Shown: piece after piece, positions 7,363 through 11,364 of the stretch
Position numbering within the stretch: the first letter of the stretch is position 1
How the letters are laid out: the number at the start of each line of letters is the position of its first letter
Notes under the pieces: model-generated
What the model was told of the DNA's origin: nothing
Seen by the model: the letters and a program-made list of their open reading frames with translations, nothing else
Databases searched by the model: none
Origin: Hydrogenobacter sp.
GTDB taxonomy: Bacteria > Aquificota > Aquificia > Aquificales > Aquificaceae
Assembly: GCA_041287335.1 (NCBI GenBank)
Contig: JBEULM010000035.1
Coordinates: forward strand, 1-42,461
Length of the DNA: 42,461 bases
Direction: 5' to 3'
Translations under genes and position numbers: made by a program

Positions 7363-8409
7363 TCAAGACAGAATGTGTTTAAGCATCTCCTCACATGCGT
7401 TGGGATTGGCAAATCTTTTTATACCTTTTGAGAAACTTTCTCTTTCACTCAAGAGGCGTTCAAGAGCTTTAACAACTTTCTGAGAAGATGCCTCCTTTTG
7501 AGTTATGAGGATACCTCCTCCTATCTGCTCTATCTCCTTTGCGTTGTAAAATTGGTGGTTTCTCGCAGAAAAAGGATAGGGTATAAAAAGAGCGGGTATA
7601 CCAAAAATGGAAAGCTCCGTTATTGTTGATGCTCCTGCTCTGCTCAAGGCTATGTCACAGGATCCATATATAAGATCCATGCGATCACTGAAGGCAAAAA
7701 CCTTAACCGGCAATTTTTTCTCTTTGTAGTAGCTTTCCATACGCTCTTTATCTTTCTCCCCGGTTATGTGAATGCCTTGAATACCAAGATCCGAAAAGAT
7801 GCTTAAGGCGAGATCGTTCAAAAAGGTAGCACCTTGACTCCCACCTATCACGAGAAGCACCGGCAGATCTTTATAGAATCCAAAAGATTCCTTCAAGTAT
7901 TCTTTATCTGGAACGCCTTTTAATAATTCTCTCCTTACGGGAAGTCCTGTCTTTATCACCTTCTCTCCTTTGAAATACTTCCTTGAGTACTCAAAGGTTA
8001 TAAACACCTTTTTTGAAAACTTACTTAGCAAAGTATTTGTAAGGCTCGGTACAGAATTTTGTTCGTGTAAGTAAAGAGGTTTTCTTTTTGCGGTAAGAGC
8101 AAAACCAAGGGGCAGGCTGGCATACCCTCCAAAAACTACACCTGCGTGTATTTCCTTCGCGTTTATCCTCGCACTTTCAAATAGAGCATAATATAGGGCT
8201 TTTACCTTTTCAATGAAACCTTGTCCCACAAAAGGCTTAGATTTTAAAAACTTTGCATCACAGGGTATACTGTTCCTAAATCTATACTCTATGCCTCGCT
8301 CAGAACCTATAAACTCTACTTCTAAACCTTTTTTTAGCATACACTCAATGAGCGCTATCGCTGGGAAAAAGTGTCCCCCAGTTCCTCCTCCGGATACGAG
8401 AAACTTCAT
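7363..8409 (-). CDS. murG: UDP-GlcNAc:lipid II glycosyltransferase MurG
   Basis: 348 residues. The chosen ATG at 8409 overlaps the gltX stop as ATGA and gives the classic start MKFLVSGGGTGGHFFPA. An upstream frame extension of 41 codons lies inside gltX and is rejected. GT28 motifs are present: FGGYASLP, LHEQNSVP, VIGGSQGA, SRAGASTITELSIFGIPALF with the UDP-binding glutamate, and YPFSARNHQ. It adds GlcNAc to lipid I on the inner face of the membrane. It is translationally coupled to gltX. Confidence 0.95.
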   Translation of the reverse strand: MKFLVSGGGTGGHFFPAIALIECMLKKGLEVEFIGSERGIEYRFRNSIPCDAKFLKSKPFVGQGFIEKVKALYYALFESARINAKEIHAGVVFGGYASLPLGFALTAKRKPLYLHEQNSVPSLTNTLLSKFSKKVFITFEYSRKYFKGEKVIKTGLPVRRELLKGVPDKEYLKESFGFYKDLPVLLVIGGSQGATFLNDLALSIFSDLGIQGIHITGEKDKERMESYYKEKKLPVKVFAFSDRMDLIYGSCDIALSRAGASTITELSIFGIPALFIPYPFSARNHQFYNAKEIEQIGGGILITQKEASSQKVVKALERLLSERESFSKGIKRFANPNACEEMLKHILS

Positions 8410-9818
8410 GCTATCTTCTGAAGCATCTTCCTTATTCTCATTTCCACTTTTTCCTTTGGTAGCAGATCGCATATTATATCCACACCTACACCCTGAAGCT
8501 CTCCAGTGAGAGCTATTCTGAGAGAATGCCATACGTCTTTAGCTTTGACACTTAGCTCCTTTTGTATCTCTCTGGCAATATCTTTCACGCTTTGAGAGTT
8601 AAGTTCCCTATCTTTTATCTTTTCTAAGAAGGATGAAAGTATATCGTAGACTTTCACATTTTCAAGCTCGCTCCATGCCTCTGCAGATAGTTCAAAATCG
8701 TCAGTAAAGAAAGGTCTCAACCTTTCAACAGCATCCTTTAAAGTTTCAAAAGAATCTCTTGTCCTCTCAAGAACCTTCTTCAAATAATCCCTGTTTGAAA
8801 CATCATAGCCTGCTTCACTTAGGAAAGGTATTACCTTTTCAAGAAGTTCTTCCAAATCCAATATCTGCCTTATGTAAATGCCATTCATCCATCTTAACTT
8901 TTCTTTACTGAAAACCGCAGGGGATGTATTCACATCCTTGAGATCAAAAAGTTCTATAAGTTCATCTTTGGTATATATCTCCCTGCCTTCTTTCGGTGGT
9001 GACCATCCAAGAAGACAAAGATAATTAAAAAGCGCTTGGGGTAAGTAGCCCTCTTCCCTGTAATTCTTTACCGAAACTGCACCGTGCCTTTTGGAGAGCT
9101 TACTCCTGTCTTCACCAAGTATAACGGGCAGATGGGCAAACTTAGGCACATCAAAGCCAAGAGCTTTGTATATGAGGATCTGCTTGGGCGTGTTGGGGAC
9201 ATGGTCCTCACCTCTTATTACGTGTGTCACCCCCATAAGGGCATCATCAACGACAACTACGAAGTTATAAGTGGGAGTTCCATCGCTTCTGATTATCACG
9301 AAGTCTCCAAAATCGTCAGTATTTATAGATATGTGTCCTTTTATGAGATCTTCAAAGACTACATACTCACTGTACGGAACTTTAAAGCGTATAGTGTAAG
9401 GTTTCCCGCTTCCCTTTAATTTTTTCACTTCGTCAGCGGATAGAACCCTGCACTTTCCTGAGTATCTGTAAGGTATTCCTTTTTTCTCTGCAAGATCTCT
9501 CTCCATGCTCAACTCTTCCGAACTGCAAAAGCACGGATATGCGTGACCCATCTCCACAAGTTTTTCAGCATATTTCCTGTATATGTCAAATCTCTCAGAT
9601 TGTCTGTAAAACTCATCCCATTCCAAACCGAGCCAAACGAGATCCTCAAGGAGCATTTTTTCATACTCCTTAGTTGATCGCTCCAGATCTGTATCCTCTA
9701 TTCTGAGTATAAATCTACCTCCATTATGTCGGGCGAAAAGGTAACTAAAGATGGCGGTTCGCGCATTACCCAGATGGAGGTATCCTGTAGGACTCGGGGC
9801 AAACCTCGTTACTATCAT
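8406..9818 (-). CDS. gltX: Glutamyl-tRNA synthetase
   Basis: 470 residues from the ATG at 9818, giving MIVTRFAPSPTGYLHLGNAR with the class I HIGH-like HLGN; the KMSKS-like motif is KLSKRHG. An ATG three codons upstream (9827) is open too, but it overlaps the TATAAT box, so a transcript made from that box could not contain it. The start at 9818 lies exactly 7 bases from the box, predicting a leaderless mRNA. A class I aaRS core is followed by an all-helical anticodon-binding domain (about 310-470). It charges tRNA-Glu; whether it also charges tRNA-Gln cannot be judged. It is co-transcribed with murG. Confidence 0.93.
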   Translation of the reverse strand: MIVTRFAPSPTGYLHLGNARTAIFSYLFARHNGGRFILRIEDTDLERSTKEYEKMLLEDLVWLGLEWDEFYRQSERFDIYRKYAEKLVEMGHAYPCFCSSEELSMERDLAEKKGIPYRYSGKCRVLSADEVKKLKGSGKPYTIRFKVPYSEYVVFEDLIKGHISINTDDFGDFVIIRSDGTPTYNFVVVVDDALMGVTHVIRGEDHVPNTPKQILIYKALGFDVPKFAHLPVILGEDRSKLSKRHGAVSVKNYREEGYLPQALFNYLCLLGWSPPKEGREIYTKDELIELFDLKDVNTSPAVFSKEKLRWMNGIYIRQILDLEELLEKVIPFLSEAGYDVSNRDYLKKVLERTRDSFETLKDAVERLRPFFTDDFELSAEAWSELENVKVYDILSSFLEKIKDRELNSQSVKDIAREIQKELSVKAKDVWHSLRIALTGELQGVGVDIICDLLPKEKVEMRIRKMLQKIA

Positions 9819-9825
9819 GTTTTTC

Positions 9826-9833
9826 ATTATAAT
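9826..9833. promoter_or_regulatory. Palindromic bidirectional -10 box, gltX and sigma-54 activator
   Basis: ATTATAAT is its own reverse complement and sits exactly in the centre of the 22-base gap 9819-9840. Read either way it gives TATAAT, with 7 bases to each start codon (9818 minus, 9841 plus). No clear -35 is visible for either direction. Confidence 0.6.
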
Positions 9834-9840
9834 TTAACCT

Positions 9841-11364
9841 ATGGAAGAAGGGATAAAAAAGCAACTTAGCACACGTGAGATCACCATAATAAACGAAGTT
9901 GCGAAGATACTGAGCAAAGGTATGGGTTTTTTGGAGAGTGCGGGAGAGGTACTGAAGATACTCTACTCTTTTTGGGATGTAAAGTACAGTTATATAGCTC
10001 TTTACAAAAGAGAACTTAAACTTCTCAAAATAATAAAAGCCTTTGGCTTGAAGGAAGAAGAAATAGAGAAAGGACTTTTTAAAAGGGGAGAGGGTATTAT
10101 AGGGAAGGTTTACAAAAGCGGTGTGCCTGTAGTTTTATCCGATCTCAGTACCAATTCCTACACCAATAGAACTGGTTTAAGGGATAGATTGGAAGGAGAT
10201 GAATCCTTTATAGCTGTACCTATAAGGATAGGGGGCGAAATAATAGGTGTACTTGCCCTCTTCAAAAGTTTTGACAGAAGAGAAAGTATAGAAAAGGCTG
10301 TTGAGCTTTTGATAATACTGGGTACTATGATAGGCATGCTCTACAAACTGGAAGAAAGAATAAACCTGGAAAGGCAAGAGTGGGAAGAGGAAAAAAAAGC
10401 TCTCACACAAGCTTTAGGTAAAAAGTACAGTCTTGAAGGGATAATAGGCAGAAGCGTTGCGGTGAAGAACCTCATAGATCTCATAGAGAAAGTTTCTCAG
10501 ACGGATATAACCGTCCTTTTAACGGGTGAGAGCGGAACAGGTAAGAGCCTTGTTGCAAAGGCTATACACTTTTTGAGCTATAGAAGAGAAAAACCTTTTG
10601 TAACTATAAACTGCTCGGCTATACCGGAAGCTCTCCTTGAGGCTGAGCTTTTTGGTTATGAGAAGGGAGCTTTTACGGGTGCTTATACTTCCAAGAAGGG
10701 GAAATTTGAGATAGCCAATGGTGGCACTGTGTTTCTTGATGAGATAGGTGACATGCCTTTATCTCTACAACCTAAGATACTAAGGGTCCTTCAGGAAAAA
10801 GAGATAGAAAAGTTGGGAAGCGAAAAGAGTGTCAAAGTTGACGTTAGGATCATATCTGCTACGAACAAGGACTTGCAGGAACTTGTCCAGAAAGGGAGTT
10901 TCAGAGAAGACCTTTATTATCGTCTCAGCGTGCTTCCCATACATATACCGCCTTTGAGGGAGAGAAAGGAAGATGTGCCCGTGCTTGTAGATCACTTCTT
11001 AAACATTTTCAATCAAAGATACGGCAAAAATGTAAGGATAGATACCAAAGCTCTTGAGCTTATGATGGAGTACCCTTGGTACGGCAACGTGAGGGAACTT
11101 GAAAATACCATAGAAAGGCTCGTGATACTTAAGGATGGTATTATAAAGGAAAATGACCTACCTTCCTACTTTTTTGTTGAACTTCGCAAAGACAAACCTA
11201 AAAACCTCCCTTCGGTTATAGAAACTACAGAAAGGGAAGAGATAGTAAAAGCTCTTGAAAGGACAGGTTACGTTAAATCAAGAGCTGCCAAACTTCTCGG
11301 TTATACACTCAGACAGCTCGACTATAGAATACGAAAATACGGTATAAGTTTGAAAAAATTCTGA
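9841..11364 (+). CDS. GAF-domain sigma-54 transcriptional activator, NifA-like
   Basis: 507 residues. A GAF-type sensor spans about 30-170. The AAA+ domain (about 200-430) has Walker A GESGTGKS (229-236), the sigma-54 contacting loop GAFTGA (276-281), Walker [11 protein letters not shown] (294-303) and the arginine-finger region [10 protein letters not shown] Fis-type helix-turn-helix lies at about 465-500 ([18 protein letters not shown]). The order GAF-AAA-HTH and the [11 protein letters not shown] helix are NifA-like, but no nitrogen-fixation gene is nearby, so the target is unknown. It should activate RpoN promoters by ATP hydrolysis. There is no ribosome binding site before the ATG; it is divergent from gltX. 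Confidence 0.88.

Follow-up and report, generated by a model that had tools for sequence, protein, structure and literature searches.

A palindromic −10 box predicted to serve two divergent leaderless genes, gltX and a sigma-54 activator gene, in a Hydrogenobacter genome

Introduction

In the window (the whole stretch of Hydrogenobacter sp. DNA analysed, 42,461 nucleotides), gltX and a gene encoding a sigma-54 activator diverge from an intergenic gap of only 22 bp. An initial annotation proposed that a single palindromic box centred in the gap supplies a −10 element to each strand, that the two transcripts are leaderless and compete for the box, and that the arrangement is unusual. We have examined the geometry of the gap, the sequences preceding each gene in related genomes, the positioning of TATAAT relative to start codons, and the recurrence of the layout across the Aquificaceae.

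Results

Geometry of the 22-bp gap

The gap (9819-9840) is flanked by the activator ATG at 9841 on the plus strand and the gltX ATG at 9818 on the minus strand, and consists entirely of two 7-nt spacers and the box between them. Read on the plus strand the order is CAT (9816-9818), GTTTTTC (9819-9825), ATTATAAT (9826-9833), TTAACCT and ATG (9841-9843), and the full match from CAT to ATG is CATGTTTTTCATTATAATTTAACCTATG. The features are as follows.

8406..9818, minus strand: gltX, glutamyl-tRNA synthetase, predicted leaderless; the ORF 8406-9827 matches the TIGR00464 gltX_bact profile
9819..9825, minus strand: 7-nt spacer GAAAAAC (minus reading) between the box and the gltX ATG, read from the sequence
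9825..9827, minus strand: a further gltX ATG in the same frame (start 9827) that overlaps the −10 box; the start in relatives corresponds to 9818
9826..9833, both strands: palindromic shared −10 box ATTATAAT, with TATAAT at 9828-9833 (plus) and 9831-9826 (minus)
9834..9840, plus strand: 7-nt spacer (discriminator) TTAACCT between the box and the activator ATG, read from the sequence
9841..11364, plus strand: NifA-like gene with GAF, sigma-54 activator and Fis-type HTH regions, start 9841, predicted leaderless; profile matches to Sigma54_activat, HTH_8 and GAF

Re-reading of the sequence confirms that the palindrome is centred and lies 7 nt from each ATG, with all coordinates as first annotated. 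The −10 elements of the opposite strands overlap symmetrically at ATTATAAT, and on both sides the first T of TATAAT is 13 bp before the start codon. Neither spacer contains a Shine-Dalgarno sequence, and between 9700 and 9960 there are no promoter-like −35/−10 pairs with a consensus −35 (TTGACA-like, 16-18 bp), nor is an alternative sigma-70 promoter detected. The activator is 507 aa long and its best NCBIfam model is nifA, with a score just under the cut-off.

Separate boxes precede gltX and the activator gene in relatives

Of 29 Aquificaceae gltX loci, 26 have a TATAAT, TAAAAT or TATACT box 5-10 nt upstream of the start codon when the start is allowed up to three codons further upstream, with exact TATAAT in 18 of them, and the box-to-start gap in the congeners is 6-7 nt. 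The relatives use the ATG aligned to 9818, with the −10-type box 5-10 nt before it, and the original choice of 9818 over 9827 as the gltX start is thus borne out; use of the 9827 start appears unlikely from this comparison. In Thermocrinis-like gltX copies (L049-L053, L127) the close TATAAT box is gone and an AGGA/AGGAG-like sequence precedes the ATG in some of them, which suggests that this lineage switched gltX from a leaderless to a leadered start.

On the activator side, all four congeners have TATAAT 9-10 nt upstream of the ATG, beside different neighbours, a distance that would allow a leader of 1-3 nt. In G028, a congener whose complete genome is a single contig of 1,743,135 bp, the activator has a 66-aa ORF and rnhC as its divergent neighbours, and in the congener G027 it diverges from a gene that we read as folE by its sequence, with similar upstream sequence in G026 and the congener G025. 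We also note that the folE-like gene (L007-L009, G025-G027) has an AGGAGG ribosome site, such that a leadered gene lies opposite a leaderless one at a distance of about 31 bp.

The wide retention of the gltX box within the family is also what would be expected if the box drove one direction only, most likely gltX; the reverse TATAAT would then be incidental to a symmetric, AT-rich sequence, and the activator would have its promoter within gltX or be hardly transcribed. The activator is indeed sometimes operonic, its start in genus g6 being coupled to the upstream gene, and in E. coli just 24% of the bidirectional promoters are located between divergent genes and yield two mRNAs (PMC12825309). 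However, the four congeners hold the activator's TATAAT beside other neighbours, the 7-nt spacing on the activator side is the commonest box-to-ATG gap in this genome, and symmetric sites flanked by genes on either side far outnumber control patterns (see below). We consider one-way use of the box unlikely, and favour its use in both directions.

TATAAT is positioned before start codons in this and other sampled genomes

In the sampled quarter of this genome (G000), TATAAT is present 6-9 nt before candidate ATGs, the preferred range, 35 times against a background of 3.6, an approximately 10-fold excess. The corresponding counts in other sampled genomes are 21 versus 3.2 (G028), 14 versus 2.3 (G009) and 40 versus 3.7 (G036), whereas G082, from another Aquificota family (sample L232-L241) and more AT-rich with 35% GC, has none against a background of 3.1. 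Leaderless starts may be a trait of the Aquificaceae within the phylum, with the qualification that our ORF sets are mechanical, with starts picked from ATGs near the 5' end, and absolute frequencies of leaderless genes taken from them are rough. The excess in this genome agrees with the published prediction of leaderless genes in Aquificae, Aquifex among them, in which TATAAT is about 12 bp upstream and 20.7-32.4% of genes in two genomes are predicted to be leaderless (PMC3160421).

The gltX-activator junction is private to this genome

Among the best 30 activator loci of the family, gltX is upstream of the activator only in this genome, and among the best 30 gltX loci the activator is adjacent only here. 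As gltX and the activator gene are adjacent in none of the relatives examined, alignment of the gap cannot serve as a test of conservation. Retention of the palindrome in near relatives, on which the initial annotation had placed weight, is literally not seen, the junction being absent there, but this carries no information, since in those genomes gltX and the activator each have a box of their own. Nor does the unconserved pairing support a functional link between the two genes.

The junction most likely arose by rearrangement. The order gltX-murG-galU is common to this genome and G028, where gltX is preceded by a yggS-like gene; yggS was not found in the sampled stretches of this genome. An origin by simple reciprocal exchange between this arrangement and that of G028 was rejected, as rnhC and the 66-aa ORF here adjoin a prolyl-tRNA synthetase-like gene.

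The symmetric box recurs at many gene pairs

We searched 64 Aquificaceae genomes for the pattern CAT-Na-ATTATAAT-Nb-ATG, with the same patterns reversed as controls, and found 69 sites against three. By spacing, the sites (and reversed controls) number 17 (2) for 7/7, 16 (0) for 6/7, 20 (0) for 7/8, 11 (0) for 8/8 and 5 (1) for 6/6. The 7/7 form is present in 17 of the 64 genomes, and its reversed control in two. The off-spacing arrangement N12/N12 has no sites in the 64 genomes, and the 7/7 pattern has none in 72 Aquificota genomes outside the family. ORFs are present on both sides at 52 of the 64 sites with 7/7, 6/7, 7/8 or 8/8 spacing, the other 12 being without an ORF on one side, and at two of the five 6/6 sites. 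As some sites are common to related genomes and not all are independent, the number of unrelated gene pairs, which is more than 20, is the fairer measure.

Pairs named by profile include an RND adaptor and pump, pdxA and a moeB-like gene, coaE and aroD, hisS and thrC, and alaS and a glucan phosphorylase gene; asd with a quinone-oxidoreductase-like gene, dapA with a glycerophosphodiesterase-like gene, pyrB, and NfeD with an acetyltransferase are also named, as are others. The hisS/thrC pair has a shared box with 8/8 spacers in two congeners, G025 and G027. Recurrence at so many different gene pairs argues for a real and recurring packing of promoters over coincidence, and the layout is not a one-off.

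If one mismatch is allowed in the box, shared boxes in four genomes number 13 compared to six for the control motif TAATAT, an approximately twofold difference. This is only modestly above control motifs, and the strong statistics therefore rest on the exact palindrome; the one-mismatch count was set aside as main evidence.

A second configuration is seen at a divergent pair encoding a siroheme-decarboxylase-like protein and an Rrf2 regulator, where the shared box CATGCTATAATTATAACATTATG, with the palindrome TATAATTATA, lies in a 17-bp gap with an ATG-to-ATG distance of 18 bp. The box is identical in this genome (L132:10298-10316) and in G028 (L167:12911-12929), and we predict from it a second class of shared promoter for leaderless genes, with an 18-bp geometry. 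The symmetric 18-bp pattern CAT-N3-TATAATTATA-N4-ATG was rejected, with only four sites, all in one genus.

These counts also bear on whether the gltX-activator box is simply a chance AT-rich palindrome within a short gap, with the genes having longer leaders and promoters located upstream in each other's coding sequence. Such words are not rare, as ATTATAAT is present 50 times in this genome (1.67 Mb, 64 contigs), and short divergent gaps are common, being 30 bp or less in 20 of 57 divergent ORF pairs of the mechanical ORF set. However, the reversed word is present only 21 times, the TATAAT excess is specific to the 6-9 nt position, the more AT-rich sample from outside the family has no positioned TATAAT, the symmetric sites greatly outnumber their controls and at 7/7 spacing are absent from the 72 Aquificota genomes outside the family, and 9700-9960 offers no other sigma-70 promoter. 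Coincidence is accordingly very improbable, and a box shared by two leaderless genes accounts better for this gap.

One box or two at the RND adaptor/pump pair

RND loci were identified by searching with the adaptor protein and not with the box, which avoids the bias inherent in the pattern. In genus g3, a single ATTATAAT is common to the adaptor and pump genes in all 12 loci at which both genes are readable; the spacers are 5-8, the flanking bases are variable, and there is no inverted repeat. In this genome (L261; C20, near 18830), in G028 (L273) and in several members of g6, the divergent RND pair has two TATAAT-type boxes, one for each gene. Between the two boxes of these gaps is an inverted repeat of the GACTGACTGGTCA type that resembles a TetR-family operator. 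Because both states occur at one and the same gene pair, a collapse of two leaderless promoters into a single box becomes more plausible. The two states, found in sister genera, could be linked by a change in either direction.

A role of the gltX-activator palindrome as an operator bound by a dimeric regulator such as the activator itself, instead of or besides promoter function, is scarcely credible. A regulator gene does lie on one side of it and a divergent gene on the other, and the two-box RND gaps contain a TetR-like repeat. However, the palindrome is just 8 bp long and consists of A/T throughout, is tied to the −10-to-ATG distance, and is identical at the regulator-free pairs hisS/thrC, alaS/phosphorylase and coaE/aroD.

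Discussion

We propose that two leaderless genes share this gap as a minimal bidirectional promoter, of the sigma-70/SigA type, a reading to which we assign a probability of roughly 0.8. The proposal in the initial annotation of a single palindromic −10 box placed for two starts, both predicted to be leaderless, is supported. The weight of our conclusions is carried by the exact match to the palindrome, the controls for spacing, the restriction to the family and the comparison at the RND pair. In this model RNA polymerase would open the same ATTATAAT in either orientation, with the plus transcript predicted to start at or next to the A of the ATG at 9841 and the minus transcript at or next to the A of the ATG at 9818, for a start-to-start distance of 23 bp. 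Both mRNAs would be leaderless and translated from a 5'-terminal AUG, and any upstream contacts for each direction would fall within the coding sequence of the other gene. The most likely origin is a rearrangement that joined two genes, each with a leaderless TATAAT promoter, and left one box for both.

A broader proposal is that, in the Aquificaceae, promoters of divergent leaderless genes are routinely merged into one perfectly symmetric box, with coding regions little more than one −10 element apart. The geometry of the box, in 23-bp and approximately 18-bp classes, would set the intergenic distance, and gene order could be freely reshuffled because the 5' control signal of each gene is contained in about 15 bp. 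We lean toward this generalization, although only slightly.

If correct, the arrangement is close to the smallest control region possible for two genes, with one box, two starts and no leaders. It would also offer a family-wide set of natural bidirectional promoters with starts readable from the DNA, in which models of polymerase orientation choice and competition could be tested. As an aid to annotation, the box can fix start codons in Aquificaceae genomes, as it does for gltX here.

Competition between the two transcripts, which was part of the initial annotation, is unsupported, and five E. coli bidirectional promoters showed no competition, their basal activity being too low for it (PMC12825309). 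At the shared promoters of soxR/soxS and acrR/acrA, one polymerase orientation excludes the other, and activating one side can repress the other (PMC12825309). Those systems have regulators and operators, whereas none were found here and the gltX pairing is seen only in this genome. In the literature searched we found no account of divergent leaderless genes that share a single box, which is weak evidence for novelty as many journals are not covered.

The architecture joins two known kinds, the shared −10 bidirectional promoter and the leaderless Aquificae gene, and this main interpretation is well supported by the sequence comparisons. As in the leaderless genes described previously (PMC3160421), TATAAT is positioned relative to the start codon, with its first T about 12 bp away there and 13 here; that study treats single genes, and neither 'divergent' nor 'palindrom-' occurs in its main text. 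Bidirectional promoters with a shared −10 are well established through the work of Warman, Grainger and colleagues (PMC12825309, PMC10268837, citing Nat Microbiol 2021 6:746), with divergent starts 7-25 bp apart, of which 18 bp is the commonest and 10 and 23 bp are also common (PMC12825309, PMC10268837). The published examples were defined by start mapping, and leaderless transcripts are not part of their description, whereas here both genes are predicted to be leaderless and the box is a perfect palindrome. In both cases the −10 elements overlap on the two strands, and the 23 bp predicted here is one of the preferred distances.
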